A DNA stretch of 64,000 nt, taken from Arachis hypogaea (Eukaryota > Streptophyta > Magnoliopsida > Fabales > Fabaceae). The notes below the pieces were generated by a model that saw nothing but the letters and a program-made list of their open reading frames with translations, made no database searches and had not been told where the DNA came from. The DNA is taken from NCBI RefSeq assembly GCF_003086295.3, contig NC_092055.1:120581192-120645191 (forward strand). Direction: 5' to 3'. Below, in pieces: positions 13,399 to 60,518 of the stretch. Each line of letters opens with the position of its first letter. Position 1 is the first letter of the stretch. The position numbers and the translations under genes are program-made.

Positions 13399-13465
13399 AA
13401 ATCAGTGGTGAGAGAGCACACTTTACTCTCTAAAGTGAAATTCAAACTTTAGAGGATCCAAATCC

Positions 13466-14169: not shown

Positions 14170-14560
14170 TATATAGTTCTAAAAAAATTTATGTGTTGTA
14201 TATTAAATAACTCAAATTTTTGAAGCATAATACAAAATATTTTTTATATAATACAAACTTATCGATATAATGTAAAATTTTTTGCATATAGCACATAAAT
14301 ATTTGTATATAACACATAAATTTTTACACATAGTACACAAATTTTTGCTGCGAATGTATTTTATTAACAAAATGAGTCAATATTTTGGGTATGTAGTCCT
14401 CCAAATATTTTTGTGCTGCATATTAGATAGTACACAATTTTTTTTTTAACATAGTACAAAAATTTTCACATAACATAAACTTATCGATATAATATAGAAA
14501 TTTTTTTACATAGAACATAAATATTTGCATATAACACAGAAAATTTTGCACATAGCACAC
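14170..14560. repeat. 220-bp tandem dimer, second copy cut by CACTA
   Basis: Two head-to-tail units start at about 14170 ('tatatagttct') and 14390 ('tatgtagtcct'). Each contains the same ordered blocks of 'acataacacataaat' type as the copy at 340-540. The second unit stops exactly where a CACTA terminus begins (14561), so the CACTA inserted into this repeat. Confidence 0.6.
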
Positions 14561-20281: not shown

Positions 20282-22564
20282 TCACAGATACTCAAAGTAT
20301 GAGGATGGCCTCCCAACACCAAACTTAGAGTTTGAATGTGGGGACTCTGTTTGACTCTGCATTGAGAGAAGCTTGTCATGCTTCTTCTCCATGTGTACAG
20401 AAGGAGATTCTTTAGCTTTAAACACAAGGTAATCCTCATTCACTTGAAGGACCAACTCTCCTCTGTCAACATCAATCACAGCTTTTGCTGTGGCTAGGAA
20501 GGGTCTGTCAAGGATGATGGATTCATCCTTATTCTTCCCAGTGTCTAGGATTATGAAGTCAGCAGGGATGTAAAGGCCTTCAACTTTTACCAAGACATCC
20601 TCTACAAGTCCATAAGCCTGTTTCCTTGAATTATCTACCATCTCTAGTGAGATTCTAGTAACTTGCACCTCAAGGATCCCTAATTTCTCCATTATAGAGA
20701 GGGGCATGAGGTTTATACTTGACCCCATGTCACACAGAGCCTTCTTAAAGGTCATGGTGCCTATGGTACAAGGTATTAAGAACTTTCCAGGATCCTATTT
20801 CTTCTGAGGTAATTTCAGTTGAACCAGAACATTTAGTTCATTGATGAGTAATGAAGGTTCATCCTCCCAAGTCTCATTACCAAATAACTTGGCATTCAGC
20901 TTCATGATTGCTCCTAGATATTGAGCAACTTTCTCTTCAATAATATCTTCATCCTCTTCAGAGGAAGAATACTCATCAGAGCTTATGAATGGCAACAGTA
21001 AGTTTAGTGGAATCTCTATGGTCTCTATATGAGCCTCAGATTCCTTTGGTTCCTTATTAGGGAACTCCTTGGAGGCTAGTGAACGTCCATTGAGGTCTTC
21101 CTCACTGGAAATCACTGCCTTTTCTTCCTTTCAAGGTTCGGCCATGTTGGTTATAGTTATGGCCTTGCACTCTCTTTTTGGATTCTCTTCTGTATTGCTT
21201 GGGAGAGTACTAGGAGGGAGTTCAGTAACTCTTTTATTCAGCTAACCCACTTGTGCCTCCAAATTTCTAATGAAGGACCTTGCTTCAGTCATGAAACTGA
21301 GAGTGGTCTTAGATAAATCAGAGACTGCAGTTGCTAAGTCAGAGTGGCTCTGCTTAGAATTCTCTGTCTGTTGCTGAAGAGATGATGGAAAAGGTTTGTT
21401 ATTGCCAAACCTGTTTCTTCCACCATTATTATTATTGAAGCCTTGATTAGGCTTTTGTTGATCCTTCCATGAGAGATTAGGATGATTCCTCCATGAAGAA
21501 TTGTAGGTGTTTCCATAGGATTTTCCCATGTAATTCACCTCTGCCATTGCAGGATTCTCAGGGTCATAGGCTTCTTCTTCAGAGGAAGCCTCCTTAGTAC
21601 TGCCTGATGCAGCTTGCATTCCAGACAGACTCTGAGAAATCATATTGACTTGCTGAGTCAATATTTTATTCTGAGCCAGTATGGCATTCAGAGTATCAAT
21701 CTCCAAAACTTCTTTCTTCTGAGTTATCCCATTATTCACAGGATTTCTTTCAGAAGTATACATGAATTGGTTATTTGCAACCATTTCAATGAGTTCCTGG
21801 GCTTCTTCAGGCGTCTTCTTCAGATGAAGAGATCCTCTAGCAGAGTTGTCCAATGACATCTTGGACAGTTCAGACAGACCATCATAGAATATGCATATGA
21901 TGCTCCATTCTAAAAGCATGCCAGAAGGACACCTTCTGATCAACTGCTTGTATCATTCCCAAGCTTCATAGAGGGATTCGCCTTCCTTCTGTCTGAAGGT
22001 CTGGACTTCCACTCTAAGCTTACTCAATTTTTGAGGTGGAAAGAACTTTGCCAAGAAGGCATTGACCAGCTTTTCCCAAGAGTTCAGGCTTTCTTTAGGT
22101 TGTGAGTCCAACTATGTCCTAGCTCTATCTCTTACAGCAAAAGGGAAGAGCATAAGTCTGTAGACCTCAGGGTCAACCCCATGGGTCTTAACAGTATCAC
22201 AGATTTGCAAGAATTTAGCTAAAAACTGATGAGGATCTTCCAATGGAAGTCCATGATACTTGCAATTCTGCTGCATTAGAGAAACTAATTGAGGCTTAAG
22301 CTCAAAGTTGTTTGCTCCAATTGCAGGAATTGAGATGCTCCTTCCACAGAAGTCAGGAGAGGGTGCAATAAAGTCACCAAGCATCTTCCTTGCATTGTTG
22401 GCATTGTTGTTATTTTTAGCTGCCATGTCTTCTTCTTCTTCGAAAATTTCTGTTAGGTCCTCTCCAGAGAGTTGTGCTTTAGATTCTCTTAGCTTCCTCT
22501 TCAAGGTCCTTTCAGGTTCAGGATCAGCTTCAACAAGAATGCCTTTGTCCTTGTTCCTGCTCAT
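20282..22564 (-). pseudogene. gag-protease polyprotein of gypsy element
   Basis: A single minus-strand frame of 761 codons. The first 150 residues hold a gag core (FCGRSISIP; HQFLAKFLQICDTVKTHGV; LMLFPFAVRDRA), typical of Athila/Tat gag. The middle has asparagine-rich sequence and SSWRNHPNLSW. The last 157 codons are an aspartic protease: LCDMGSSINLMPLSIMEKLG with D-x-G at the active site, then ILDRPFLATAKAVIDV. Five in-frame stops break it: 22112-22114, 21953-21955, 21242-21244, about 21133 and about 20795. No frameshift is seen. Every stop is of a kind reachable by one C-to-T or G-to-A change. No zinc knuckle was found. Nothing resembling reverse transcriptase follows. Confidence 0.85.
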
Positions 22565-24348: not shown

Positions 24349-24357
24349 AAAACTTGG

Positions 24358-25977
24358 TGCACGAAATTGTGATTTAAAAACTTGGTATGGCGAAATAGTG
24401 ATTTCAACACTTCTTCACAACTCCGATGCAACTAACCAGCAAGTGCATTGGGTCGTCAAAGTAATACCTTACGTGAGTAAGAGTCGATCCCACGGAGATT
24501 GTCGGCTTGAAGCAAGCTATGGTCATCTTGTAAATCTCAGTCAGGTGGATTAAAATGGTTATGTGATTTTGATACCTAAAATATAAATAAAACACAAAAT
24601 AAGATAGAAATACTTATGTAATTCATTGGTGGGAGTTTCAGATAAGCATATGGAGATGCTTTGTTGCTTCTGAACCTCTACTTTCCTATTGCCTTCTTCC
24701 AAACATGCGTTACCTCCTTCCATGGCAAGCTGTATGATCCTCTCGGATGAAAACAAATCCATATGCGCTGTCACCGCACGGCTAATCATTTGTCGGTTCC
24801 CGCTAGCGTCGGAATAGGACCATTGTCCTTTTGCGCACTGTCACTTGTGCCCCACATTTGCAGGTTTGAAGCTCGTCACAGTCATCCCTTCCCAGATCCT
24901 ACTCAGAATACCACAGATAAGGTTTAGACTTTCTGGATCCCAGGAATGGCTGCCAATAATTCTAGCCTATACCACGAAGGTTCTAATCTTAGATTAGAAA
25001 CCCAAGAGATACGCACTCAAGCTATTGCAGATAGAACGGACGTGGTTGTCAGGCACGCGCTCATAGGTGAGAATGATGATGAGTGTCACGGATCATCACA
25101 TTCATCAGGTTGAAGTGCGAGTGGATATCTTAGAGAAGAAGTAGGCATGAATTGAAGAGAAAAACAATAGTACTTGTATTAATTCATGAAGAACAGCAGA
25201 GCTCCACACCTTAATCTTTGGGGTGTAGAAACTCCACCGTTGAAAATATATAAGTGAAAGGTCTAGGCATGGTCGTGAGGCCAGCCTCCAAATGTGAACA
25301 TACAAGTTCCAAAGATTTAAGATCAAAAGTGATCAAAGATGAAAGATGAAAATACAATAGTAAAAGGTCCTATTTATAATGAACTAATGGCCTAGGGTTT
25401 ACAGAAATAAGTAAATGATGCAGAAATCCACTTCCAGGGCCCACTTGGTGTGTGCTTGGGCTGAGGATTGAAGCTTTCACATGCATAGGCTACTCTTGGA
25501 GTTAAACACCAGCTTTGGTACCAGTTTGGGCGTTTAACTCCAATTCTGGTGCCAGTTTGGCCATTTTATGCCAGAATTCCTTGGGCTGACTTTGAACGCC
25601 AGTTTGGGCAATCAAATATCGGGCAAAGTATGGAATATTATATATTCCTGGAAAGTCCAGAATGTCTACTTTCTAACGCAATTGAGAGCGCACTGATTGG
25701 GATTCTGTAGCTCCAGAAAATTCACTTCGAGTGCAGGGAGGTCAGAATCCAATAGCATCTGCAGTCTTATTTTAGCCTCTGAATCAGATTTTTGCTCAGG
25801 TCCTTCAATTTCAGCCAGAAAATACCTGAAATCACAGAAAAACACATAAACTCATAGTAAACTCTAGAAATGTGATTTTTATTTAAAAACTAATAATTAT
25901 ATACTAAAAACTAACTAAATCATACTAAAAACTACCTAAAAATAATGCTAAAAAGCGTATAAATTATCCGCTCATCA
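24358..25977 (-). repeat. gypsy 5' LTR (1,620 bp)
   Basis: Equal in length to its partner at 15580. Its outer edge at 25977/25978 joins directly onto integrase-region sequence of a copia element, without a matching TSD on the other side. Confidence 0.9.
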
Positions 25978-31999: not shown

Positions 32000-33617
32000 T
32001 GATGAGTTCATATTTGACGATATATTTTAGCTTGAATTGGATGGATTTCATCACATAAACTCACACTTATTCACCAAAATAGCATACTTTTGTGTTTGAC
32101 CCCTAAATTGAACCTAAATGTGAAAATATGCGTTTTGTGCTTAAATTGAGCAATTTAATCTCACTTTTATTTCATTCAATGCCGTGATATGTTTGTTGAG
32201 TAATTTCAGGTCCTAGAGGCAAGAATGGGTTGGTAGAAGTGGAAGAAAGCATGGAAAAAAGGGAGAAAACATGAAGAAAACAAAGGAGAAAAGCATCTCA
32301 GCCTGTGTCCACGCACAGCTTCTGTGCCCACGTACAAGGCAGGGTAAAAATAGGACCTGTGCCCACGCACAGGCTGTGCCCACGCACAAGAGAAAAATCA
32401 GCAAGTGTGCCCATGCACAAACCTGTGCATCCGCACAGGTACCAGCGCATGCCTCCATTAAAAAGTCACGTGGACTCGCGTTTTGGGGGCTTTTTGGCCC
32501 ATTTTTGAAGGCTTTGGAGCATATTTGAAGGGAAAAACAACTATAATCATACCATACACTACCATACTTGGGAGCAGAGTTTTTAGGAGTAGTTTTAGGG
32601 TAGTCTAGTTTAGGTTTTTCTCTCAAGTTTCCTTAGGTTTAATTAGGGTTTGTAGCATTTTATACTTTAATTATGTCCTTGAATTTTGCTATCTCATTGT
32701 AAGTATTTCTTTAATTTCTCTTTTAATTACTACACTTGTTCTACACTTTCATCTATTTTCATTTCTCTTATCAATATATGCATAGTTTTGCAATTTTGGA
32801 TTTCTAGTTGTTGAATTTGATGTTTGATGCTTACTTTATGTTTGGTGAGTTGCCTTTATTAATTTTGATCATTTATGGTTCATAGCTTTCATCAATTTCT
32901 CAATTTTGCCATATTTTATGTTCATGCCTTCTATGTGTTTGATGAAATACCAATCTTAGTTATGGGATGATTTTCACCCCTTGGCTTGGGAGAAAATGAG
33001 TCTATGGATTACTAGAGTCATAATGTCCAACATTTAGTGATAATTCTTAGGTTGTTAGTTGTTATTGTTTCCACTAACACTAGCTTTTTACTAAGGTAAT
33101 TAGTAAGTTAGCTAGGACTTGTGGATTAATAACAATTATGCTCACTTAACTTATCCTTCGATGTTAAGGGTTGACCTAGTGAGATTAATCCATCATGATT
33201 ATCATAGTTGTGGTTATGGCAAGGAAGGGATTCCATAACTCATCCCAAGTCAAGGTTTCTTTTTTGTTTTGAATCACATTTCTATCACTTTATAGTTTTA
33301 CTTGTTTATATTACATACTTAGTTCGTTTATTCCTTTATTGCTTTGTTGATTCTAATTTTGTCTTGTTCTTTATTTCGTTTTTACTTCCTCATCATTGAA
33401 AACCCCTTTGATTCTCACAACCAAAATTGTGCACTTACGGGCATTAGTTCCTAGGGAGAACGACCCGGGATTTAAAACTCCTGGTTATTTTGTGTTGATT
33501 GTGACATCTTTAAGATTATAATTTGATTGATGATCAATGGTTGGGTTGGACTATACTTGCAACATCAATCCTATTTTTAGTGCGAAAATCCAAACCCATG
33601 CTTTTGGTCACTCGTCA
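32000..33617 (+). repeat. 5' LTR (1,618 bp)
   Basis: Contains a short GTGC-nnnn-GCAC repeat cluster at 32300-32445, shorter than that of the 3' LTR. The rest is AT-rich, with the phrase 'cttacgggcattagttcc' near the 3' end that is shared with the other LTR. Confidence 0.9.
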
Positions 33618-33621
33618 ATTT

Positions 33622-33640
33622 TCGGCGCCGTTGCCGAGGA
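33622..33640 (+). promoter_or_regulatory. primer-binding site, tRNA-Asp type with mismatches
   Basis: TCGGCGCCGTTGCCGAGGA lies four bases after the LTR. It differs from the perfect tRNA-Asp complement (TGGCGCCGTTGCCGGGGA, present at 24331) at two or so positions. This is probably decay after insertion. Confidence 0.78.
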
Positions 33641-33855
33641 ACTAGCATCATGAGTGCTATATTTTGGTTGTTGTAAATATGTCCATAGTGTGAATAAATA
33701 CTTTTTGGTTGCTTGTTTGCTTTTGTTGGTAATTAGGATTTTGTTTATTTTGTTAATTGATGTCTTTGGTTTTTATTTTCAATTTCACAATCTTGGTTTG
33801 GAGTTTGGTTGTGCTTATTTTGTAGGGCTTGATAACTTTGGTTTTGGATTGCATC

Positions 33856-35022
33856 ATGGGATTGGAGTATCAATTTTGGGAGGAGCCACCTCCTCTATAT
33901 TACAATGAGCCATACTCTTCCCAATGCATATACCCAACCCAAGGATATGGTGGATTTCACTTTGACTATACACCTCCTCCACCATATACCTACGACCCAT
34001 ACCCCCAACATGACCCTCAATCACCATCTTTTCAAACACCACACCACCACCACCATATACCCTCTTACATACCACCTCTAAACACTTGCCAACATGAGTC
34101 ACCTCCCACATATATAACTTTTCTCCCAAATTATGAACCTCAACTCTCACCCTAATGTGAAGCTTTTCCACCCTTGGCTCAAGACCAACAAGACCTTCAA
34201 GCCTTTCTCCAAGAGCAAGAAGGATTCTGAAAGACTCAAGGGCAATTCATAGCTACCATAGCCGAAGCGGTGAACCGCTTGGTTCTTCTACGCTCATCCA
34301 ATCAAGACACTCCTCTTAGAGGATATGAGAAAACAATTGAAGGGCGGAGTGAAGAGAAGAATGTGAAGCCTCAAGGGAAGGAAGAGGAGTTGGGTCATGA
34401 CATGCAACAAGAGGGAGAAAGGGAAGTATGTGAACCGGAGGAAAGAAAGGGAGAATTGAGGGAGATTGATCAAAATGAGGATTCCATCATAAATGATTTT
34501 TTGTCCTCCTTGATCAATCCCCTTAATGACCCTATTGAGCCTCTCCCTCTTGAGTTTGAGAGAAACATGGAGGTAGACTTCTCACAACCTCCTTGTTATG
34601 ATGTGAGTGATGGGGAAGAGGAGGAAGAGGTTGGTGAAGAAGGAGTTGACAACCAAGAACATATTGAGTGGGTGGCAATTTCTCCATTGAGCCTCATTGG
34701 CCCCCACCAATATGCTATCTTGGAAATGGATTATCAACTCAAAATCCTTCTTAGGTTGGTACATAGTGGAGAAAGAAGTGTTGGTTGCCAATTGAATCCA
34801 AGACCCTTCAAGAAGAACAATTCAAGAATTGGAGTTCAAGTGGTGTGTAGAGCACAATTGGGTGATTTTTGGAGAGTGTTGGGTTGCTACAGGGGTCATT
34901 TGAGAGCTCGTCCATCCAGCTTGAAGCATAGCGATCAACAAGAAGGTGACCGGATGCCTAGAATATGGGATCCCGAAGGAGCCATAAAGTGCAAGCTTGG
35001 ATGGAGATTCAAGGAGGAGTGA
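33856..35022 (+). pseudogene. gag-like ORF of the non-autonomous element
   Basis: One plus-strand frame of 389 codons begins MGLEYQFWEEPPPLYYNEP, is proline/tyrosine/histidine-rich (YTPPPPYTYDPYPQHDP) and continues through a charged middle (GEEEEEVGEEG). It ends with a basic segment before TGA at 35020. Two in-frame stops interrupt it (34153-34155 and near 34228), with no frameshift. I do not recognise a catalytic motif. Position just after the primer-binding site argues for a structural or packaging role. Confidence 0.6.
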
Positions 35023-35329
35023 AAACACAAGCCACCCTAACAAGAGTCTCCTCAACAAGTCCAACTTAAGGACTATAAACTAAAGTGTTAGGTGGGAGAC
35101 ACCCCACCATGGTAACATCTTTCTTACCCTTTCTCTTTATTTATAGTCCTAGTTTCTTGCATGTTTGCTTGTCTTAGTTAGCTTAGGATTAGTTTAAATT
35201 TGAGTTTAGATAGGTTGAATTGCAAATGGATGATGATTTTGTGATGTTTTGAATGTTTTGGGGTTGAAATGTTGATTGAGCTAAGGCATAACACCTTAGA
35301 AATGAAAGAAAAATTTTTGCAAAACAGGG

Positions 35330-35705
35330 TATCTATGCGTACGCACGCTTTTGTGCGTGCGCACACAACTATGAGTTTCGCGACCTGTGCGAGCGCACAA
35401 GCCTGTGCGCCCGCACACTCTTTGTATTGCCCCCGGCTCGCAGCACCAGCATAGCTTGTGCACGTGAACCCCTATCCTTTTTCGCTCTTGTGCGTGCGCA
35501 CGGACCTGTGTGCGCACGCACACATGATCCTGCTTACAAAAAAAAAAGAGAGAGTCTTCTGTGCGCCCGCACACCTTTGTGCGCGCGTACACATCTACAT
35601 TCTTGTTCTGTCCGGAGCACTCGTACACCTTGTGCGAGTGCACACCCCCTGTTTCGCCTTTTGTGCGTGCGCACACTTGCTTGTGCGTCCGCACAGGTGC
35701 TGTTT
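35330..35705. repeat. cluster of GTGCG-nn-CGCAC inverted repeats
   Basis: About ten 12-bp motifs, such as GTGCGTGCGCAC (35353, 35490 and 35661 regions), GTGCGCCCGCAC and GTGCGTCCGCAC, lie within 375 bp. Linkers of 10-35 bp separate them. They are CpG-rich in otherwise AT-rich DNA and can each form a short stem. Related clusters occur in both LTRs and at 52690-52990. The ORFs reported on both strands here are by-products of the repeats. Confidence 0.85.
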
Positions 35706-36760
35706 TGGGCAAAATTTTTGTTGCACATTGAATTAAGCCCTAACGCACTTCCCACCCTTCCACCCCCTTTCACCTCTCTCTTCTTTTACTTTTCCCATGT
35801 TTCTTTACTTGTTTTACTTAGTTTTTAGTGCATCTCATTTTCATTTTAGTATCTATATTATTTTTGGTTTACTTGCTTGTTAATTCAATAAGTTGCAAGT
35901 GTTTGCTTGTTGATTGATTGGGTTGCTTGTTGCTTGAATTTCATCAATGCACTTATACCTTGCCTTCCATTCCTATCACCTAATTGGATTTGCACATGTA
36001 TATTTTGTTACATATTAGGTGAAACTTTTATGAGTGCACATGGAATTTAGTGAATTAAATTGAATTGCTTGTTCACCATGGACTTTAAGTCAATATAATC
36101 ATATCACAAGGTCATTGTTTCTTGTTAATACTTTGTATTTGTTTGAGTTGGCTTAACTTGATTCTATCAAGTTTGTCACCTTTTTGTAACAAACACCTTA
36201 ACCGTGTGATTATTTGATTTTTCCTACGGATGAATAAGTAATTTTCTTTTCATCATTGCATTGGTTATTGTTTGTTGTGCTATTTTATATATCAATTTTG
36301 CTCTTTCACTTGCACACCTTCAATATCCAATATTTTCTAAATTCAATAGACTCTTGTTGCAATTACCGAAGCTTGTTTGTGTTTAATTGATGATCATCTC
36401 TTAGTTGTATCTTAGGCCATTTAGTTGAGGAACTCATGCTTACTTTTTGAATATGTGGATGCCATTTTAACCGGCCGTTGTGTGTATTCTAACTGCGTGC
36501 ACACTTGGAATACACGCTGGCTCATCTTTTTATCATACCACACAACTATGCAAACTTTCTCAATTAGATGCTTATTTGCTTACTCCTTTACCCTTTTTGT
36601 GCTACTTGTCCTATGATTCTTAATTATACTTCATTCATTCCTTTTGAGGATGAGACGTGAGGCAAAGAGCTGGGAGAGGAGGAGAAAACCGAGGATGGAG
36701 ATGTTGAGCATAGATTGGACTTGGTGACTTCCACACAACCCAAACCCCCACATCCACTAA
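35706..36760 (+). other. non-coding interior of the Tat-like element
   Basis: T-rich plus-strand sequence with no convincing frame. The last 130 bp (GAGGATGAGACG onward) are more GC-balanced and continue after the CACTA at 43173, joined across the TAA duplication. Confidence 0.7.
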
Positions 36761-36774
36761 CACTACAAAAAATC

Positions 36775-37310
36775 TGGTTAAAATGGCGGTTTTTTTGGGT
36801 ATTTACGGCGGTTTGAACCGCCATTATTACCAAGAACGGCAGTTTTAAAAAACGACGTAATTCTGGGCGCCATTCTGGTTATTACGGTGGTTTTCAGAAA
36901 ATCGTCACAATTTCCAAGGTTAAAACGGCGGTTTTTAGATAGGTTAAAATGGCGGTTCAAACCGCCGTTATTTCTAAATAAAACGGCGGTTTTTAACTGG
37001 TTAAAACGGCGGTTCAAACCGCCATTATTTCCAAATAAAAGGGCGGTTTTTGGTTGGTTAAAACGGCGGTTCAAACCGCCGTAATTTTCAGGGTAAAAAC
37101 GGCGTTTTTGATTGATTAAAATGGCGTTTTTAAACCGCCATTTTGACCCTAACAAAGTGGCGTTTTGTTGGTTAAAACGGCATTTTTGAACCGCCATTTT
37201 TACCTTGATAGTGATATTTTTATTGATTAAAACGACATTTAAAACCGCCGTTTTTACCAAGTTAAAATGGCGTTTCATGTTGTTTAAAATGACAATTACA
37301 AACCCCCCTT
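36775..37310. repeat. CACTA left subterminal repeats
   Basis: More than fifteen copies, in both orientations, of a core GGCGGTTTTT / AAACCGCC joined by TTAAAA. Dense subterminal repeats of this kind are the known binding region for CACTA transposase TnpA-type proteins. Confidence 0.85.
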
Positions 37311-37948
37311 TTTACCAGATAAAAGTGACATTTTTTATCTTTTAAAAATACAATTTTTACTGTTGTTTCTATCATGCTAAACAAATAATTTTTTTATTAA
37401 AATTCCACAATAACAAAATCATAATTCATAGACAAAATATTATTTAACTCAGTATTAAACATAATATATAATTTTTTAGTATTGCAAATCAAAAATAATA
37501 ATTCCTATACAAAATATCAAACTAAGAAATATTATTAGTTCTATTACATTGGGAGTTTTCCTAGAGATGCTCAAAAAGTTTGCAACAGACCCTTCCAACA
37601 TTTTCATTGTTCATGTCCGTGTGAATAAATATTATCTGCAAAAGAAAATTAAACGTTAGAAATAAATAGTTGCTCAAATAAATAGCAAACTACTAGCATT
37701 TTGAAGAAGAGAAAACTAAACCAGCAGTCTTACAAGAAATATGCTATTTGATAAGAACTCATTATTAATTAGGAGTAGCTATCTTTTTAACCTCTTTGGC
37801 TCCATCTTATTTGTGTGTACCTATCCTTCTCTTAGATTTCTCAAATAAGGCAATGTAGTTCACAAATGTCTATAACCAGCATTAAAAGACACTCATGGGA
37901 GAAAATGGCAAGTAATGGAAGCAAAATTGGACAGATTCGAAAACTCAC

Positions 37949-38371
37949 GGGGTGGTTTCTTGTCCGCCTCCTTGAGAACAGGTGTTGTAAAAAATTCCAG
38001 CAGGCTTTCCTGCTAGTGCCTGTGTACACCATAGGCCTCCAGTTGCATCCAAGAATGCCTTAAACTGAGCAGCCATGAGTCCAAATCTCGTTGGAAATCC
38101 AAGCAATAAACCAGCAACCTCAGGTAGCTCATTGGGTGTAATAATCGGCACATCACTCTTTGGAGGTGCTCCCATCTTCCTAAGTACCTCTTCAGGCAGT
38201 GTTTCAGGTACCTGCATGTGTTAAAAATATTATAACTGCAGCATGCAAATTCCCAAAAAATTCTCAGAACAATGAGTTATAAAGAAAAGATTTATAACAA
38301 GATAGATTTTTCAATACAAACCTGCTAGAATTTTGCTTCTACTCCTTCCACGGAAGCAGCCCCCTTTTTAA
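37949..38371 (-). pseudogene. captured FQR1/WrbA quinone reductase exons
   Basis: The exon at 38211-37949 encodes [20 protein letters not shown], then [19 protein letters not shown] and [10 protein letters not shown]. These are hallmark segments of the flavodoxin-like NAD(P)H:quinone oxidoreductase FQR1 (WrbA family); GFPTRFG lies by the FMN site. The preceding exon half (38371-38322) encodes IKKGAASVEGVEAKF, then TAG (38327-38325) where the family has a tryptophan codon, then Q at the splice site. Splice donors (38321, 37948) and the acceptor (38212) are canonical. The flavodoxin N-terminus and the C-terminal half are missing. The upstream end of this exon is fused to telobox-Myb sequence. 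Confidence 0.85.
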
Positions 38372-39120
38372 TCTCTCGTACACGTAGCAAAATCGGTTCC
38401 AGGATTGGCGTTGTACCATGCTTCCGCACGTTCATCTATGTCAAGAAAACAAATTTAACAAGGAAAATAAAGTTGGAACCCAAATTCCTAATTCAAGAGT
38501 TATAATAGGTCGGATTTCTGCAGAGAACAACAACTCAGGAATTCAGTAAGCAGAAGAATTAGGTCAAATTTTTTCCAACTGTAATCATCCTATTAAAGAG
38601 GAGAGGAAAGAGGAAAGTGGCAATAAGTATAGGATAAGGAGAGTTGATGGTAGTTTTGTAAAATCAATCTAGTTTATTAAAAAATCAAGATGTTTCCAAT
38701 TTCCTTAATTTCTATGCTTAAATGCCTAACTAATTTTGGACAGGTAGTAAAATATTAAGCAACTTAAGTCACATGCATGCATGTTGAAACAGTTCCTGGA
38801 ATGTTTGTAGGAACTAATTTCCAAATAGTTTTTAACCACAAATCATGTTTATATAAACTCACTAATAAGCAAGATTAATTTTGCAAAATCACGACTCTTA
38901 CCCCTTCATCTGCAGGTGCCTGGGCAAAGCTAGCCTTGAGAAAATTCCTCCACTTGTCCTGCAAACCAAAATCTGTTTTCAGTGCAATTTAGTGACAACA
39001 AAATCGAGCCATGTACTTTGCTGACTAGCCTTAACACGACCAGACCTCAAAACTGCTTACCTTAAGATCGACAGAGGTACGATACGAGTGTGACGAAAAG
39101 GAGAGCCGTTTGATCTCAGA
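38372..39120 (-). pseudogene. captured telobox-Myb (TRF-like) exons
   Basis: Three minus-strand exon pieces. 39120-39061 encodes SEIKRLSFSSHSYRTSVDLK. 38958-38902 encodes DKWRNFLKASFAQAPADEG. The front of 38435-38322 encodes MNVRKHG...LLRVRE. VDLKDKWRN is the plant telobox signature of Myb-type telomere-repeat binding proteins (TRFL/TBP class), in helix 3 of the SANT domain. Each piece has AG before and, except for the fusion, GT after. All junctions are phase 0. The first Myb helix and everything N-terminal are absent. The third exon runs without a break into FQR1 sequence at about 38371. Confidence 0.8.
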
Positions 39121-39571
39121 CTACCTCCCTGAGCTACACCGTGATACACCGTCATGATTCAATGTTCATTGCTTCTTAAAAAGCTAACTCTGCAATTTTA
39201 ATCAGACATTGGCAGCGTATATGAGGGGTAACTACCAATCTTAGTATTGTTCTTTTTAGAATTCTTCAAGTCCTTTCTGTTCAGGATGTTAATTTGCTTA
39301 ATATTTTGAATTACACACTCAAGTGAACATGTTGCTTCCACTATCATGATGTTGCTAACTAATTAGCTATAAGTTTAGAAAGTATAAGGTTATTTAATGC
39401 ATACATGAACAAAATATAGGGAATTAGTATACAAAAGCAAGATGAAGTTTTAATATAAGGTATGGTCTCGTGCAATTATACAGAAGACAGGCTCAAGTAA
39501 CTTGCAAAAATCATAGTTACTAAGTACTACATTAATGGTTTAATAACTTATGCAACAGAGAACACTATAAC

Positions 39572-39736
39572 CTGGTCAAGAACAGGGCCACAGAGAGATC
39601 CATAATCATCAATTCTGGTATGGTAAAAGGAGCTGTAGAATATGAGTCTTGTTCTTGGTGCAACTGCTTTGAACTTGAAGCTCACTGTTCTGAAGTTTCC
39701 CTTCCCTTCAGATTTGAAGGGAACTTTGACCCTTTC
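39572..39736 (-). pseudogene. captured DUF642 protein exon
   Basis: This 55-codon exon encodes ERVKVPFKSEGKG, FKAVAPRTRLIFYSSFYH and DDYGSLCGPVLD, ending exactly at a GT donor (39571) with an AG acceptor before it. These match the second galactose-binding-like half of plant DUF642 cell-wall proteins, including the CGPV(L/V)D motif. It stays open with phase 0 at both sides. It is one exon only; the signal peptide and first domain are missing. Confidence 0.78.
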
Positions 39737-41048
39737 CTATTAACAATTTTGTAGATCAGAAGAGTCTTGGACATTATCCTTATGATTTTTTAACATGATA
39801 TAGATAGCCAAATTAGTTACCTGCAAAATGAAGCATTGTATAACACAAGCAATGGTTTAGCTTGGCTGTTACTTGTTTGGAAAACTAAATTGTCTCATCG
39901 TATAATTTAAAATGGATAATATAACCATTTTGATGGTTGAAAAATTTATTAACAAAAATGATCCAAATACTAATTTATTAACAAAATTGTATACGTGATA
40001 CATTATTGGTTGTGCAGAAGTTTGAAATCTTCCTAAAGTTGCAATTTAAATTTGTTGCGTCAATCGGAATTAATAAGACAAAAAATGACCAATTCTAAAC
40101 AAACAAAGCATAAGACAAAGAAAAGTAACCTTCAAGACTACCACATGAAGTCAATGGCTAAACTTGCTGACACAGTTAAGCTGAAACGAGCATGCATATA
40201 TCAAAGAAAAGAAGCAGAAACGAGCATGTATGAGTATGGAGAGCAGAGCAGCACACATCACATATAACAAACAAACTAAATCAGAGAGGGAGAGCCAGCT
40301 GTATATGAAGGATAATTCCCTCACCTCTAACCTCTCACCCAATCCCTCCATTCCACGTGTCTCTCCAATGTATATCCTGAATTTCAAAGATTATCAACTG
40401 CCAAATTAAATTTATCTCCAATTTCCCCAGAAGTTATGTCCAAATACCAAAGCATATAACACCATTATTATAATAAAGGCTATGCATTACTTATGAGTAC
40501 GTGGACTTGGAATTAGATTTGGATATGGATATAACTCTCATTGCTTTTCCTCAAGACCAAATATAAATTAATAAATTAAAAAAAAAGAGACCACTTTTGC
40601 TTGTATCCTTTTTCTTATGTCACAAAGCGCAAAGCATAAACATGAATGAACTTATGAAATAAAAGCTATAAAGAGTTGACAAGTAATAGAATGTTAGAAA
40701 TTTACTGGGGAAGGTACATTTTCTTCTATTTATAAAGTATATGAAATATTTTATCAAAAACCTCAATAGAAACAATAATATATATAAATAGAAAACAAAT
40801 ACTTTTATTGAAAAAAGTAAAAAACAAAGACTTTTGAACTTTTGACTACATAAATGAAAACTTTTAAAAATATTTCTTTTTTTTAAATATTTCAAGAGTA
40901 AGTAATAAGTTAAATATTTCACAAAAATTTACAAAATCATATTCGAATAAACATAAGGTGGTAGACAAGAAACTGAGTTTTCAGTGGCAAAAAGGAAAAA
41001 AGAAAAGCACTAGTCTTTGTGCATATACACAAGAGGGTGAGTAAGTTG
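39737..41048 (-). other. CACTA interior without recognised exons
   Basis: AT-rich DNA with no convincing coding frame. A pyrimidine-rich minus-strand stretch (about 40370-40200, with CTCTCCCTCTCTGA and TGCTCTGCTCTCC) looks like a plant 5' untranslated region, and could be a captured promoter/leader for the DUF642-side chimera. This is inference only. Confidence 0.5.
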
Positions 41049-41150
41049 TTAGTGACCATAATCTTGGTATTTTGTCACTGAAGCATCAAGAAGCTGAACA
41101 CCGTAGTAGTTCCCAATATCTCCTTGCCTTGATTGTATTATCTTCAAAGA
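41049..41150 (-). pseudogene. unrecognised captured terminal exon
   Basis: An AG acceptor at 41152-41151 opens a 34-codon exon that reads SLKIIQSRQGDIGNYYGVQL and ends KYQDYGH before TAA (41051-41049). Phase 0 matches the donor of the kinase exon upstream (41546), so a spliced kinase-derived transcript would terminate here in frame. I do not recognise the parent gene. Confidence 0.45.
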
Positions 41151-41545
41151 CTAAATATCAACTTAGTAGATATTGATATTACAAGTGCATTTAGTGAAAA
41201 AGTCTATTTTCCTGCTATGCATTATTTATAAGCAATGGAAGTGATTTTCAAAAATCAAAATCAACTTCCTTACAAGCCACTCTACAACCTATTTCAAACC
41301 TCAACCAATTCATTCTTTAATTGCATCTATCGGAGGATTAATGTAGAAGAAGCTGTCAAAGAGCTATGTAGCAATTACTCAACCACTTTCTAATATTTCA
41401 CCCTAAAGAAAAATACAAAAATCATAACTGAATTTTCCACGAAGCATTGGCATAGATAGTGTCTAGAAATATGTCAAACAAATAATGACCGCAAAAATAA
41501 GATATAACAGCTGATCTTAGACAACCAATAGAGTATAAAACTTAC

Positions 41546-42284
41546 CTTTAGAAGTTCATAGATATAATATCGAATATCATAATCTGACAGGGTGGGGTAG
41601 AGCACTTTAAAATCAGTGTTATTGACATATTCAAATATAAGGCTTGGGGTCTTTGATTGCTGGTCCCTAACAATGTCAAGCAGCTTTATAACATTGGGAC
41701 TTCCACAAAGATTATGTAATATTTTGATCTCCCTCTTTAACTGCAACCAGAATAACAACTTATAAGATGTACAAACTTATATATACAACCAGAATATTAG
41801 AAAGGGTAAAATCTTACAGGTTTAAAATTAGAAATTTAATAACAAACTAAATGAACTACTGGACCAAAGTTGGTCATTGAAGCCCTAGCACAGCATTCAT
41901 TGCCATATGAGGATGGAATGAAGTGAAAAAGTATACTGAAACTGAAAACAGCAGTGTTGTTTTAAATTAAAAATAGCAGTCATATTAGTTAATACAAACT
42001 GCAATAGGTGTAGGGATTGGAATTTGATTCACCTTTTTCTTCTTGACGAGTTTGAGGATCTTGATTATGCATTTTTCATTATCGGTGGAGTGAACGCCCT
42101 TAAAGACCTCACTGTATTTCCCTCTTCCCACCTTCCTCACAACCTCGTAGTCATCTTGCTCCCTGCAACTCATGAACACAATTTTTTAAACAGATAATAG
42201 ATAAACAAAATAGGAAATAGGAAATGAAATAAAAGTATTAATAATAATAAATATGATTATTGTTACCCCCACTGGACGGTGAGA
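41546..42284 (-). pseudogene. captured casein kinase II alpha exons
   Basis: Three exons. 42284-42267 encodes only LTVQWG. 42162-42033 encodes [20 protein letters not shown] (the glycine loop GRGKYS) and CIIKILK, with the ATP-anchoring lysine. 41740-41546 encodes [28 protein letters not shown] and [12 protein letters not shown]. These are near-perfect CK2 alpha N-lobe segments. The catalytic loop (HRDVKPHN) and DWG motif are absent, so no active kinase could result. Borders are GT/AG throughout and phases agree between the two large exons. The parent would be a host CSNK2A-type gene elsewhere in the genome. Confidence 0.88.
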
Positions 42285-42415
42285 CTATAAGCACATAGTG
42301 GAACAAATTCAGAACTGATAAAGCATGAAAGAATCAACTCAAGGAACTAAAACAAACTGTTAACTAAAAGCATTAAGTTTCAGGCACAAATAATCCAATA
42401 AAACAACAAAATTAC

Positions 42416-42532
42416 CGCAACTCCATTCTCCGCAGCATCGGGCGCTTCATCATCATCATCATTATGAATTGTTTCAACGATCCCTTCCTCAGAAACCCTA
42501 GCTCCTATAGTTTTAGTAGTTGTAGTTGTCAT
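42416..42532 (-). pseudogene. possible captured first exon
   Basis: ATG at 42532 opens 39 codons (MTTTTTKTIGARVSEEG, then an acidic NDDDDEAPDAAENGVA) ending at a GT donor (42415). It is preceded by a pyrimidine-poor leader. Its phase-0 end does not match the tiny kinase exon at 42284, which needs two preceding bases, but other splicing is possible. Parent gene unknown. Confidence 0.45.
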
Positions 42533-42689
42533 TTCGCAAAATCTATCATGTATTCTGAAATTTTGGATCAATAATTCAAGAAATCGAAAGAATTAGAGTA
42601 AAATATTTTCAAGAGAACAGAGGAAAAGAGGGAGAAGAACCTAACTCGCGAGCTTGTGGGAGGAGAATCTCTCATAGCACATTAGCTCG

Positions 42690-43150
42690 ATGGATGAGAT
42701 TGCCGGCGTAGGAGAATGCCACCGGAAGAGATCATTGCAGTAAGAGATGCCGCTGGAGAAGACCGTCGCAGGAGGAGATTGTCGTTGGAGGAGAGGTCAC
42801 CAGTGAAGATCACCGCTGAGGAAAAAGTCGCCGAATGAGGTCGTCGTTGGAGGAGACCATCGCCGAAAGAGATCGGTAAGAGAAGGTCGTCGCTGGAGGA
42901 GATCGGTAAGAGAAGGTCGTCACAGAGAAGATCCCTCTGGCAGCGATTCAAACTTTGCGTTTCAACGAAAAATGAGAATTGGATTAGGGTTAGGCTATTT
43001 TATATGGAAGTGATAATGGCGTTTTAAAACCGCCAAAATCAACAGAAACCGCCACCAAATACAATTCAATTATGGCAACAATGAAAAACGTCATAATACC
43101 CAGGTATTACGGCAGTTTTACAAAACCGCCGTAATATTTATGCCATTTTA
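42690..43150. repeat. CACTA right subterminal region
   Basis: A GC-rich block (42690-42945) of GTCGTCGCTGGAGGAGATC-like repeats is followed by a few AAACCGCC / GGCGTTTT copies (43010-43150). There are fewer subterminal motifs than at the left end, as is common for CACTA elements. Confidence 0.65.
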
Positions 43151-43172
43151 TGTCTCTTTTTTTGTAGTGTAA

Positions 43173-44956
43173 CCTAAGGTGGAGGAACTTCGAGATACCC
43201 CCCGGATTATGTTCGTGCACGGAGGACCATGCAACGCTTAAGTGTGGTGGAGGATTCATCCGTCTGGGGCATAAACTTTCTTTTCCGAACACTTTGTACT
43301 TTATTTTTGTTTCTTTTTATTAGGTTTCTTGTAGATATTTAGATTGATTTTGATTGTTGCATTGCATTTTCTTCTAGTATATATATCTTAGCTTATGTAT
43401 AGTTTAATTTCTAGTTATTACATGTTGCATTTTTGTATCTTTTTCTTAGTATATATTTTATAGATAGAAGTTATGATTGGATGATGAGAATAGTATAGCA
43501 CCTAGTTTAATTTTGTCCTAATTGTTCATGTTAATTTTTTCCTGTTGAAAATTAGAAATAGAACTAGGAAATTTTTAGAAATTGCATCCATCACATCATA
43601 CATATAGGAAATAATTTTGGTGAAAAAACAACAAGAATTTTGTCTAGGGAGTTCTATTGAATTGATTTGGAAAATTATTTTTAAACTCGCTTGAATAAAT
43701 TTTTATGGAACATAGAAGAGGAAAGAACAAAATACCTTGTGAGTTTTTGAGCCTATAATGAGTGGTTACACCTTTTAACCACTAATTTTGTTCATTGTGT
43801 GCTATATCTCTTCTATGATTGTGATCTTGGTTTTGCTTGATTCTTTATTTCCAATATTTGATGTTGTGATTGCATTTAGCATGATTGAGACTATATTTAA
43901 ACTAAACTCACTCACCCATATAGCCTTACCCTTGCATCTACCTTTGTTAACCCCTTTGAGCTTTTTAATCCCTTTGTTCAAATTATAACCACATCAAAAG
44001 CTTGAGCAAAAAATCATGAATTACCTTGAATTACATCTTTGATTAGCTTAGGTTGAGGTGTGTGTGTCGTTTAACTGTGGGTAGAAATTTTGGGAAACAT
44101 TGGTAATGAATGAAAAAGTTTGTATTGGGTATGCGTTGAGAAAGAAAATTTTGGAAAAAAATGGGTGCACATTCATGTATCAATTTGCTTTAACCATATG
44201 CATTTGTCATAGAAAAAGAAAAAAAATAGAAAAAAATGAAATGAAAGAAAAAAATATAGTAATAAGATGGGACAAAAGTTATCCCAAAGAGAATAATTTT
44301 GGAATAAGAAATGCATATGTGTTTTGAATAGAAACTAAGGCATGAATGTATGTGAAAAGAAGTAATGGGTGGCTAGAATGCATTTTTTGTGGGTTGATTG
44401 ATATAGGTTGAGTTGGGTACTTGAACTAATCAAAGATTCAATCCTTTAGTCCACTTAGCCATATACTAATCTTACCTTTACCCCAACCCCATTACAACCT
44501 TCTAAAGACCTCATGATACTTGTATGCATGCATCAAATACTTGTTGATTGTTAGATGAAAAGCAATTTCTTGAAAGCATGAGTAGAGGAGACTTAAGTGA
44601 TTAAACCCTAAACACCGAGCGTTGAGAGTGTATACACACCTAGTGAGGGTTCGATCACTCAACTCTATGTTTTCATACCTCTTATCATGCATTCTTGCAA
44701 GTTGCTTCTTTTTGATGAGTTAAATCAATTCTTTAGATTTTGATTGCATTGAGCTACTTCTTTGCTTAGCCCTATATGTCTATATAATTGCTTGGGAATT
44801 GAATGTTTGTTTTCACCAAGTCAATAGAATACTATAGTATATATAGGTATATATAATATATACATATTTGTATGCATATAGATAGTTGCATTCAATAAGT
44901 TGTTTCCCTTTGGTCATTCTCCTTGTTTGGTTTAGCATGAGGACATGCTATTGTTT
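43173..44956 (+). other. 3' interior of the Tat-like element
   Basis: AT-rich sequence after the CACTA with no convincing ORF. The first 100 bp (CTAAGGTGGAGGAACTTCG) continue the sequence interrupted at 36760. A run of dinucleotide-like TATATAGG lies near 44840-44870. Confidence 0.7.
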
Positions 44957-44970
44957 AAGTATGGGAGAAT
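44957..44970 (+). promoter_or_regulatory. polypurine tract
   Basis: AAGTATGGGAGAAT lies directly before the 3' LTR start TGATGAG. Confidence 0.75.
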
Positions 44971-46674
44971 TGATGAGTCCATATTTGACGATATATTTTA
45001 GCTTGAATTGGATGGATTTCATCACATAAACTCACACTTATTCACCAAAATAGCATACTTTTATGTTTGACCCCTAAATTAAACTTAAATGTGAAAACAT
45101 GCATTTTTGTGCTTAAATTGAGCAATATAATCTCACTTTTATTCCATTCGATACCATGATATATTTGTTGAGTGATTTCAGGTCCTAGAGGCAAGAATGG
45201 GTTGGTAGAAGTGGAAGAAAGCATGCAAAAAGGGAGAAAATATGAAGAAAACAAAAGAGAAAAGCATCTCAGCCTGTGCCCACGCACAGGGGTCAAAATC
45301 AGGACCTGTGCGTCCGCACAGGTCTGTGCCCACGCACAAGGCAGGGTAAAAAGTGGACCTGTGCCCACGCATAGGCTGTGCCCATGCTTAGGGCAGAATG
45401 GAAATCAGGACCTGTGCGTCCGTACAGGTCTGTGCCCACGCACAAGAGGAAAATCAGCAAATGTGCCCATGCACAGACCTGTGCGTCCGCACAAGTACCA
45501 GCGCATGCCTCCATTAAAAAGTCACGTGGACTCGCATTTTGGGGGCTTTTTGGCCCATTTTTGAAGGCTTTGGAGCATATTTGAAGGGGGAAACAACTAT
45601 ATATCATACCATACACTACCATACTTGGGAGAGGAGTTTTTAGGAGTAGTTTTAGGTTAGTTTAGTTTAGGTTTTTCTCTCAAGTTTCCTTAGGTTTAAT
45701 TGGGGTTTGTATCATTTTATACTTCAATTTTGTCTTTGGATTTTTTTATCTCATTGTAATTATTTCTTTAATTTCTCTTTTAATTACTACACTTGTTCCA
45801 CACTTTCATCTATTTTCATTTCTCTTATCAATATATGCATAGTTTTGCAATTTTGGATTTCTAGTTATTGAATTTGATGTTTGATGCTTACTTTATGTTT
45901 GGTGAGTTACCTTTATTGATTTTGGTCATTTATGGTTCATAGCTTTCATTAATTTCTCAATTTTGCCATATTTTATGTTCATGCTCTCTATGTGTTTGAT
46001 GAAATGCCAATCTTAGTTATGGGATGATTTCCACCCCTTGGCTTGGGAGAAAATGAGTATATGGATTATTAGAGCCATAATGTCCAACATTTAGTGATAA
46101 TTCTTGGGTTGTTAGTTGTTATTGTTTCCACTAACACTAGCTTTTTACTAAGGTAATTAGTAAGTTAGCTAGGACATGTGGATTAATAACAATTATGCTC
46201 ACTTAACTTATCCTTCGATGTTAAGGGTTGACCTAGTGAGATTAATCCATCATGATTATCATAGTTGTGGTTATGGCAAGGAAGGGATTCCATAACTCAT
46301 CCCAAGTCAAGGTTTCTTTTCTGTTTTGAATCACCTTTCTATCACTTTATAGTTTTACTTGTTTATATTACGTACTTAGTTCGTTTATTCCTTTATTGCT
46401 TTGTTGATTGCAATTTTGTCTTGTTCTTTATTTCTTTATTGCTTCCTCATCATTGAAAACTCCTTTGATTCTCACAACCAAAATTGTGCACTTACGGGCA
46501 TTAGTTCCTAGGGAGAACGACCCGAGATTTAAAACTCCCAATTATTTTGTGTTGATTATGACATCTTTAAGATTATAATTTGATTGATGATCAATGGTTG
46601 GATTGGACTATACTTGCAACGTCAATCCTATTTTTAGTGCGAAAATCCAAACCCATGCTTTTGTACACTCGTCA
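44971..46674 (+). repeat. 3' LTR (1,704 bp)
   Basis: Matches the 5' LTR at 32000 but is 86 bp longer, because the GTGC-nnnn-GCAC cluster (45275-45500) has extra units such as GTGCGTCCGCAC. Followed directly by the CAACC duplication. Confidence 0.9.
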
Positions 46675-52990: not shown

Positions 52991-54805
52991 AGAACTCACA
53001 ATTTCTGCAACATCACAGAAATAAGATTTTTGACACCAACTTCCAACGATAATATCTTTTTCTACAAAATTTTGATTTCTACGAAATCTATACTGTTTTA
53101 AAACTCTTTGAATTATCTTTAATTTGATGCAAAATTTAATCAATTTAAAAAACTGCAGCTCAATATATGATCCACCAAAGTTGGTCCAAAATCCGTTTTT
53201 ACCATAAACCTTAAAAACTCAATTTTACCAACACTCTCAATTCAAAACCAATTATTCACAATCCAACAATACCAAACATCCAAAATTCTATTCTTATTTC
53301 TCACACTCAACATAACTCATACCATTATTCTTAAATTTTCCTAAACCATCAATTGTTTTACATTTCCTACTTATAGATCACCAATCTCAATAATCCTCAA
53401 CTCAAGCATCAATCCATCACAATTACACCATTCCTAGCCATTCCAATCATTGTTCATCTACTAATCATTATAAATTCTCATAATTCATTCCACACTCTCA
53501 ACTCCAATAACCTTATCCCATATACAAGCCATATACACAATTATCATCATTCATCATCAAATTTTGTAATCATCATCATTATTATCCCAATTCAACAAGT
53601 TTCTATTTATTCCACACAACACCACCACAACATTTATCATCAATAACCATCAACGTATAACATCACTCCTCAACCATATCCATTTCATACAACATTATAT
53701 CAACCTCCAAATCATAAATCACATTCAATTAACATATGCATTCAATTCAATCCTATCTTTAGGTCAACTAGCCTAAGGTTCACGAAATATTACATATTAC
53801 ATAAAGAAAACCGAAACCATACTTTGGCCGATTTCCAAAATGTACCAAACACCAAAACGAAGCCACCAAACTCGATCCGAAGCCTTAAACCAACTCCAAC
53901 AAACACTAAAACTCAATCTAACATCACATAACATACTAAACATCAAACCTAAGGTTCACAAAATAACTAAATACAAGGGTTTAGTAAAATCTTGCCTTAC
54001 TCAACGAGATTAAGGGCAAAATCCAATAATATTCCAATGCTAGATCACCTCTAAACAAACAAAACTATGAAAATCTCAATCTAACAAAGCCACAACTCAA
54101 ATTTGCCAAAGAACAGAAAACTGGAGCTTGAAATTCGAGTTTCTTACCACTTTGTTTAGATAGAAATGAAGAGCTCGACAAGAGTTTCGTGTGACCGCAA
54201 ACGGCTCGTCAATCGAGCACCGTAGCTCAAGTTATGGCTAGAACAATGAGAAGGTGAATAGTGTCATCCCTCTTCTCCTCTCTTCACCATCAGCGCCCCC
54301 CACTCTCTCTTTAGGTCAAAATGAGTTGATTTGGCTCATTAATGGGTTTATATATGTTGGGCCTTGGGCTCGGTTTGGATCCAGTCTAACCCGTTAGCGT
54401 TTTAGGTCCGTTTGGCCCTCTTTGGGTAAAAACATTTAAGATTAACACCCGTTTTTCAATAATAAATTATTTTTGTCCTTTCAAAATAATAAATTAAATT
54501 TCCAAAATCTTATTTTCAAAAAATATGCAGTACCGGACAGACTAGAGCCGGTACTGCCGGCTTAAGTATCGGTACGCATTTTTACAAAAATCTTTCGCAA
54601 AAGATACATTTTCTAACTCAAAAAAATTCACTGAATTTAAATTTTACCTTTATATTTTAAAAAAATATTTTTATATTTTTGAATCTATTTTAAATAATTA
54701 AATTATTATTTTATTAAAATAGTTTTACGTAAAACTCCAATTCTTACACATATTACAAAAATTCAATTATAATTAAACATGTCTAAGATAATAAAACTCA
54801 TATTA

Positions 54806-58493: not shown

Positions 58494-60518
58494 CTAAATT
58501 GAAATGCATTGAACAATAACGGGAGCCCCATACTGTGGCGTAAGAGTAAGACGGGCACATGGAGCATGAGAATAAGAAGGCGAAAGATGGAGTGAGAAAT
58601 GTTGAAGAATCATAGCCAGAGCCATCTTTGATTCCAAGTGGGCAAAATTTTGGCCAGGGCAGATTCTTGGGCCCCAACCGAATGGATAGAAAGCATTTTG
58701 ATCCTTAGAAGCTTTTGAAATCCCTTGGCTAAACCTCTCTGGGTTGAACTCTTGTGGATTCTCCCAATATCTCCCATCATGATGGAGAAGCAACAATGGT
58801 AAATATAGCTCCACCCCTGCTGGAATTGCCATGCTTCCTACCGTCGTTTCACACGTTGTGTACCGAGAAATTACTGGTACAGGTGGATATAGTCGCAAAA
58901 CTTCCAACAATATCATCGACACCTGCAAAATAATTCAGCAGTTGATTTTTTGTGTACACATCGTATTTAATTATATTTTACTATTTAGACCTATACTTTT
59001 CCTTAGTAATATGATTAGTTACTCAGTAAACGAGACTTACTATCTTGAGGCGGTTTATGGCTTCAAAATCGGGAGGTATTTGTTCTTTGCCGAAAAGATC
59101 TAATACCTCTTGTCTTGCTTTTTCTTGCCAATCAGGGTGTATAGATAAAACTACCATGGTCCACGCAAGCAGGTTCTTTGTGGTGACTTGGCCAGCAAAG
59201 TAGAACAACTTGCATTCCTCAATCACGTCCTTGGTTGTTAGAGACTTTCCTACTTCTCTTGATTCCAGTAGAATGCTTATTAAATCATTACTACTCCGCC
59301 CTTCTGATTCATCTTCTTTCATTGCGTGCTCTTTCTTCTTAATCATATCCATCAATATATCTTTGATTTGAACATCTAACTTGTATCGTTTCTTGTTCTT
59401 CTTTGTTGGTATAAATCTATTTACACATGAACATTAGTAGACCACAAATACAAATATATATACATCATTTTAAATTTAAATTAAATTCAAAATGTTATCA
59501 GTCACCAATATATGTATTCTTTAACTCATTTTTAATGTTATTTTATATTTTAGTATGGATAGTTAATTTTTCTGTAGGCGTATAGATTATGTGAGAGACA
59601 CAGACCTGAAACCAGGGATGTAGATGTTGGTGAGGGCATCATGCACCAAGATTGCAATCTCCTTTTGTATGTCGAAGATTCTCTTTCCTTCTTTGTAGCT
59701 GCTACCGAAGGCTGCTCGAGCAATAACATCACCCGTGAGAATGTCCAATTCAGAAGTGACATCCAACTCAGAGGATCCATTGTTTTGTTCCACGAATTTT
59801 TGCCACCGTTCAATCATGGTACAACAACTGTACGAAAATGCCGGAAGCATTGCCTATAAAATTAAAAATAAAATCTGAAGGATTAGTAATTACTACTGAT
59901 GTAACAAGTATGTTGGTTAATACTTATTAGTTTGTTACCTTCAACTTGTCGAGGAGAAATGCAGATGTAACGGCTTTTCTGCGTTGAGACCATTTTTCTC
60001 CCTCGAGGGAAGTCAAACCCATGGTTAGGAGCTTAATTAAGGGGTCACGCGGCGGCTTAATAAGCTGACCGTTCTTGTTTGATAAGATCAAACGGGTAAG
60101 TTCTGCGTCCACTATTATCACTCTTGCTTTTCTTCCAAACCAGCATACTGAAACTTCTCCTACATAAAAACAAATTCGATTCCAGAGAGTTGAAATTAAA
60201 TGATAGAAATTTGGATGGGGGTGTGTACGTACCGTATTTTCGAACCATTTTGTGAACGAAAGGGAAGACTCGTGGGACGATTTGGTGGTTGAGATTGATA
60301 GGCTTTGATGCTGCTTCGCGAGCACACTTATTCATTTCTGGGATGTCACCCTTAAAAGGTTTGTAACAAGTCCCTTTAATCCCTTGCTTCTTCAATAACT
60401 TCTCTGTACTTGTTGGTTTCCACCATATGCTATGCACAAGTTTTACCAAGATATACAAAACTAGAAAACCAAAACACCCCGCCATGCTTTCTAATAACAT
60501 GTATTCATCTTCTTCCAT
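58494..60518 (-). CDS. cytochrome P450, CYP72 clan (five exons, 519 codons)
   Basis: Haem-thiolate monooxygenase, anchored in the ER membrane by an N-terminal hydrophobic helix (CFGFLVLYILVKLVHSIWW). Exons: 60518-60233, 60159-59939, 59853-59606, 59416-59041, 58922-58494. All introns are GT-AG, the frame is continuous and the length is normal for CYP72. Motifs: C-helix EKWSQRR, helix K EVLR (ExxR), NPERF, and haem loop FGWGPRICPG with the cysteine ligand. SYAHAP-like and PQYGAP ends are typical of the clan. The I-helix reads AGQVTT, where nearly all relatives have AGQETT, so the acidic residue of the oxygen-activation pair is valine. I chose the ATG at 60518; 60548 and 60485 are alternatives in the same frame. 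The subfamily (CYP72A, CYP721 or CYP749) and substrate cannot be told. Relatives act on triterpenoids, gibberellins and other terpenoids. Confidence 0.9.

Follow-up and report, generated by a model that had tools for sequence, protein, structure and literature searches.

How does a transposon that encodes no transposase come to carry exons of several unrelated host genes, all of them on one strand? The question is raised by a 6.4-kb stretch of the peanut genome, positions 36761-43169 of a window of 64,000 nucleotides (Arachis hypogaea, assembly GCF_003086295.3, contig NC_092055.1, forward-strand positions 120,581,192 to 120,645,191), to which all coordinates below refer. This stretch is one complete non-autonomous CACTA element. 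It is very probably a Pack-CACTA in which captured genomic DNA of three or more host genes, probably four and perhaps six, has taken the place of the transposase region. An earlier, sequence-only reading of the same DNA had proposed such an element and had suggested that transcription shaped which captures persisted.

The ends of the element agree with that reading in full. Its 12-nt terminal inverted repeats (TIRs) are perfect, the pair is unique in the window when both strands are searched, and a 3-bp target site duplication (TSD) lies outside them (TAA/TAA). Inside each end, short direct and inverted repeats form a subterminal block, whose core was defined as GGCGGTTT or AAACCGCC with at most one mismatch. 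The left 600 nt hold 21 cores, against a mean of 1.8 and a maximum of 7 in 200 dinucleotide shuffles, and the right 164 nt hold 5, against a mean of 0.2 and a maximum of 3. The whole element contains 27 cores (21 left, 5 right, 1 between); the remaining 57.6 kb of the window contain 22. CACTA-type TIRs, a 3-bp TSD and subterminal repeats of this kind define the CACTA (En/Spm) superfamily. A six-frame read-through Pfam scan of the element at E 0.5 returned no transposase domain, as claimed, though such a scan is rather insensitive to short exons and failed to pick up the DUF642 and Myb pieces described below. The element thus combines what marks a Pack-CACTA: no transposase domain, host-gene cargo, and significant PDB matches of that cargo to three unrelated families. 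As a side observation, the stretch 37334-37403 resembles 54649-54720 of the window (75% identity). A scan of viral contigs for a subterminal motif gave 0 matches.

The element is nested in a long terminal repeat (LTR) retrotransposon, whose LTRs have TG...CA ends with CAACC on both outer sides. The plus orientation of this host is presumed from a primer-site-like sequence after the first LTR. Because both ends lie between the LTRs of one retroelement and have TIR, subterminal motif and TSD in common, they belong to one element; an origin from two separate elements, which the earlier reading had named as a possible refutation, is rejected. Between the two LTRs, 1617 aligned positions show 56 transitions and 19 transversions, and there are six gaps besides (Kimura two-parameter distance, K2P, 0.048). 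If 8.12e-9 or 1.3e-8 substitutions per site and year are assumed, the CACTA insertion is at most ~3.0 or 1.9 million years old, respectively.

The cargo is best recognised in two gene families. The two CK2-alpha exons, when joined, encode 108 amino acids that align without gaps across the join to CK2-alpha chains in the PDB (E 7.3e-59); the best-matching structure is presumably that of maize. The short peptide LTVQWG upstream is taken to be the end of a further, truncated CK2-alpha exon. The quinone reductase exon alone matches WrbA-type NAD(P)H dehydrogenases (quinone) in the PDB at E 4.6e-22, improving to E 2.4e-25 with residues 2 to 104 aligned when the first exon part is added and an X placed at its stop codon. 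FQR1 is assumed here to be the plant name of this enzyme.

A third family is a telobox-Myb gene, presumably of the TRF-like subfamily. Its frame downstream of an in-frame TAG (39123-39121) matches at E 0.011, and at 4.3e-5 to TBP1 (2ckx) when the codons before the stop are included; the TAG itself is aligned to a W of TBP1. The Myb peptides have no Myb match in Pfam, and a SAM_HAT_N match of one exon (E 0.081) was taken as chance. The plant telomere-binding matches of this piece are interspersed with two unrelated Scone proteins (E 8e-5 and 0.0011), neither of which has a stretch that passes alone.

Further pieces are less certain. For the DUF642 piece, the Pfam match improves from E 0.18, when cut at the supposed donor, to 0.01 when read seven codons further to a TAA, so the GT was rejected as a splice donor and the piece is probably a last exon rather than a spliced internal one. 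Ubiquitin-conjugating enzyme matches of the same piece (E 0.055 at best) were taken as chance. The putative exon at 41141-41052 has no Pfam match and chance-level PDB matches, the best to OmpC (E 0.71); the same is true of the possible first exon at 42532-42416, whose best PDB match is a DUF2098 protein (E 0.69). The minus strand at 40150-40400 resembles a gene promoter and leader, in that a G-box (CACGTG at 40354) is combined with CT-rich DNA and a TATA-like stretch. This may be a further capture with the same orientation, its TATA-like and CT-rich parts being judged by eye. Capture of several genes is therefore supported by the CK2-alpha, FQR1/WrbA and telobox-Myb matches. From the earlier list of four or more genes, these three stand, DUF642 is a probable fourth, and the unnamed exon at 41141-41052 has no match beyond chance.

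Table. Coordinates of the CACTA element, its cargo and its host retroelement in the window
Feature	Position	Strand	Remarks
Host LTR retrotransposon	32000..46674	+	LTRs 32000-33617 and 44971-46674; CACTA element nested inside
Left TSD copy, TAA	36758..36760	.	3-bp target site duplication
Left TIR, CACTACAAAAAA	36761..36772	+	12/12 nt identical to right TIR
Long subterminal repeat block	36773..37360	.	~0.6 kb; 21 GGCGGTTT/AAACCGCC cores; 57-58 nt tandem units
FQR1/WrbA-type quinone reductase exon	37949..38211	-	AG before, GT after
Fused exon	38322..38435	-	Myb-gene part ~38435-38373 (presumed) directly joined to FQR1 part ~38372-38322; one open stretch
Telobox-Myb exon (DKWRN...)	38902..38958	-	AG before, GT after
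Telobox-Myb exon end (...SYRTSVDLK)	39061..39147	-	Donor GT; match to TBP1 (2ckx)
Probable DUF642 last coding exon	39548..39736	-	Open through supposed GT donor to TAA stop (39550-39548)
Putative exon	41052..41141	-	Open; TAA next at 41051-41049
CK2-alpha exon	41546..41740	-	AG before, GTAAGT after
CK2-alpha exon	42033..42162	-	AG before, GT after
Truncated CK2-alpha exon end (LTVQWG), presumed	42267..42284	-	Donor GT
Possible first coding exon	42416..42532	-	ATG at 42532, GT after 42416
GC-rich leader	42680..42970	-	GC 0.53; imperfect repeats; candidate untranslated first exon; start 42970 assumed
Candidate TATA box, TATAAAATA	42996..43004	-	Faces cargo
Short subterminal repeat block	43006..43157	.	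5 cores
Right TIR	43158..43169	-	Exact reverse complement of CACTACAAAAAA
Right TSD copy, TAA	43170..43172	.	

The splice borders of the cargo are well preserved. All 12 exon borders assigned to CK2-alpha, Myb and FQR1 are GT or AG, which upholds the claim that nearly all borders are of this type, apart from the DUF642 GT, probably not a border at all. They delimit five introns of 104, 292, 102, 466 and 110 nt. Those of 292, 102 and 110 nt are confirmed by ungapped protein alignment across the join, while the continuity of the introns of 104 and 466 nt is presumed. On a scale up to 9, the seven donors reach 5 to 9, whereas the 341 GT of the minus strand average 4.1; the five acceptors rank within the best 10-20% of the 314 AG there. 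Since introns are present between parent exons, capture took place at the DNA level, and retroposed cDNA is rejected as the source of the cargo. Genomic DNA that has been captured should retain its GT/AG borders even without selection.

Elements of this kind are known from other plants. For instance, Tgm-Express1 of soybean is a 5.7-kb CACTA element with five unrelated gene fragments comprising exons and introns with GT/AG borders, and 11 of its 12 different transcripts contain cargo exons as spliced chimeras (PMC1947982). The peanut element resembles it in being a legume CACTA of similar size (6.4 kb) with a multi-gene exon/intron cargo and GT/AG borders, and differs in the captured genes and in location, as Tgm-Express1 sits in a gene intron and the present element in a retrotransposon (PMC1947982). 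The subterminal motifs also differ, the family consensus of Tgm-Express1 containing TTGGCAG (PMC2613891). In Arabidopsis, maize and rice, Pack-CACTA and other Pack-TYPE elements are likewise bounded by TIRs, lack a transposase and carry coding DNA of several loci; at all four places where that paper has the word 'orientation', it refers to whole elements or TIRs, not to captured pieces (PMC8903248). In the Tpn1 family of morning glory, non-autonomous CACTA elements have captured host sequence as their interior, some of it transcribed as chimeras (PMC5105172). That family belongs to another species, and the likeness lies in the captured interior (PMC5105172).

A second soybean element, Tgmt*, bears on the polarity of the peanut element. 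Its subterminal repeats cover 159 bp on the 5'-TIR side and 732 bp on the 3'-TIR side, and its gene spans bases 6,123 to 19,332 of 20,544 in gene orientation (PMC2613891). Tgmt* is larger (20.5 kb), encodes a transposase and has another motif, but shares the asymmetry of the blocks, here ~0.16 and 0.6 kb (PMC2613891). Because the short block, ~160 nt against ~600 nt on the left, matches the 159-bp 5'-TIR side of Tgmt*, the element probably has its 5' end on the right. A candidate TATA box and a GC-rich leader lie just inside this end. If this polarity holds, the cargo would be sense to the element's own promoter. Sense transcription of the cargo from the right end is plausible from these sequence features. 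A bacterial promoter scan of the element found no sites, the method being unsuited to plants.

These observations suggest a course of events. A related autonomous CACTA element would supply a transposase recognising the TIRs and subterminal repeats, with transposition in trans, and the last move of the element would have been into the LTR retrotransposon. The pieces would have entered at the DNA level, introns included and probably in at least two steps, by a putative capture mechanism. Transcription, if any, would most likely run from the right, short-subterminal end leftward in sense through the cargo, and the expected RNAs would be variably spliced chimeras with little coding potential.

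Several points weigh against this account. It is drawn from a single copy of the element and from DNA sequence. No cargo piece reaches its curated Pfam cut-off, as is expected of fragments: the single CK2-alpha exons score 26.8 and 26.4 bits against 31.7 and 31.7 for the kinase, the single FQR1 exon 22.8 against 24 for FMN reductase, and the DUF642 piece, read to its TAA, 16.1 against 27 over profile positions 115-156 of 157. The TATA box may be accidental: within the element there are 10 TATAWAW on the minus strand and 8 on the plus strand, 7.5% of minus-strand 60-nt stretches contain one, and by itself the motif says little. The 5' end is assigned by analogy with one soybean element that has a different subterminal motif, taking its border lengths and gene coordinates to share one orientation, which the accessible part of PMC2613891 does not state outright. 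In addition, all isolated Tgm-Express1 transcripts start at the promoter of the interrupted gene (F3H), outside the element (PMC1947982).

Two alternatives concern the origin and fate of the cargo. In the fused exon, a part taken to be the third exon of the Myb gene runs straight into the FQR1 part in one open stretch, so a direct gene-gene join is partly shown, the Myb side being an assumption. Such a join fits repeated illegitimate joining, and equally template switching during gap repair. It also makes it unlikely that the cargo is a simple host fragment of adjacent genes, an outcome that the earlier reading had named as its own refutation. A less simple version, in which one or two large captures of neighbouring same-strand genes or of an already chimeric locus were followed by internal deletions, is quite doubtful: this join is the only one directly seen, and the remaining breakpoints lie in sequence without gene assignment, but a mid-exon join and a truncated first CK2-alpha exon require several breaks, and several unrelated genes would have to lie in a row. 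As to fate, the reading frames of the cargo are broken, with in-frame TAGs in the Myb and FQR1 pieces (the latter at 38327-38325) that the earlier reading had not mentioned. A modelled full splice chain of 1672 nt with an assumed start at 42970 has a longest open reading frame (ORF) of 167 amino acids, and 511 exon-skipping combinations from the 42532 ATG give a median of 48 amino acids. A domesticated chimeric gene under selection could account for the intact parental splice sites and for the best combination of 271 amino acids, which uses the rejected DUF642 donor; against the two stops, the short frames and the stop of the DUF642 piece itself, it is extremely improbable.

The common strand of the cargo is the remaining issue. 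All identified pieces (CK2-alpha, Myb, FQR1/WrbA and the probable DUF642) lie on the minus strand, as had been noted for what is now the recognised cargo. In the six-frame scan this strand gave the kinase at E 1.6e-4 and FMN reductase at 0.0038, while SOCS (E 0.18) was the sole plus-strand match, with the reservation that a short exon could be overlooked. For n = 4, 5 and 6 pieces, a common strand is expected by chance with a probability (2 x 0.5^n) of 0.125, 0.0625 and 0.031; strand sharing alone, which counts recognisable pieces only, is not strong evidence. It is fairly probable that a handful of unordered captures happened to share a strand: the two-sided value is compatible with chance, and the two in-frame stops and the lack of a long ORF in the full chain give no sign of coding constraint, although the probability is borderline and Tgm-Express1 seems to have the same pattern. 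The claim that transcription shaped the cargo is still conjectural, given these probabilities, introns inherited with genomic capture and broken frames. It gains some support from the plausible right-end promoter facing the cargo. An orientation filter, by which pieces antisense to the element promoter were lost and the surviving cargo is sense and spliceable, would explain why all identified pieces are sense to the proposed promoter (preset-strand probability 0.0625, 0.031 and 0.016 for n of 4, 5 and 6). It would also agree with the five Tgm-Express1 fragments that are spliced with GT/AG into common transcripts; their single strand is presumed from the splicing, as PMC1947982 does not state their orientation or use that word. 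Such a filter is nonetheless unlikely, as the pieces are few, their strand was already known when the promoter end was proposed, only recognisable pieces are counted, GT/AG borders are inherited rather than selected, and the Tgm-Express1 transcripts start outside the element. Its generalisation, with CACTA elements acting as directional exon traps whose cargo persists mainly if sense to the promoter at the short-subterminal end, appears improbable as well. If true, antisense cargo would be silenced or would disrupt the element transcript, and transcription would order Pack-CACTA cargo.

With chance as the favoured account of strand, the element is a new multi-gene example of a CACTA class known from soybean, morning glory and other plants. 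The combination had been presented as unfamiliar; this set of captured genes was not met in the Pack-CACTA literature surveyed, while the element type itself is in print with Tgm-Express1 (PMC1947982). A literature search returned no title or abstract opening on a Pack-CACTA in peanut or Arachis. The locus is of value because its multi-gene Pack-CACTA is well preserved and clearly bounded, seems to contain an exon fusion that joins two genes directly, and has its age capped by the host retroelement. Together with the soybean precedent it offers a testable prediction, namely that cargo is sense to the short-subterminal end.

Other features of the window touch on transposons and genes nearby. 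At 14561-14574, CACTACAAGAAAAA looks like another CACTA-type end, for which the partner CTTGTAGTG was not found in the window. The minus-strand ORF at 60057-60554 resembles by eye the N-terminus of a CYP72-type cytochrome P450, without a Pfam match at E 1. An Rfam match to snoR71 at 21918-22021 (40.6 bits, gathering 40) overlaps a retroelement-like ORF of the opposite strand at its edge and is probably chance. That region has an LTR-like pair, 15579-17199 and 24357-25977 (94.5% identical), around minus-strand ORFs at 18.3-22.6 kb that resemble retroelement genes by eye. Finally, direct copies of 4.57 kb at 1317-5890 and 8825-13398 are 99.7% identical and 2.9 kb apart, with TG...CA ends and AAATC outer flanks; the pair appears to be the very long LTRs of a very young retroelement, presumably LARD-like.

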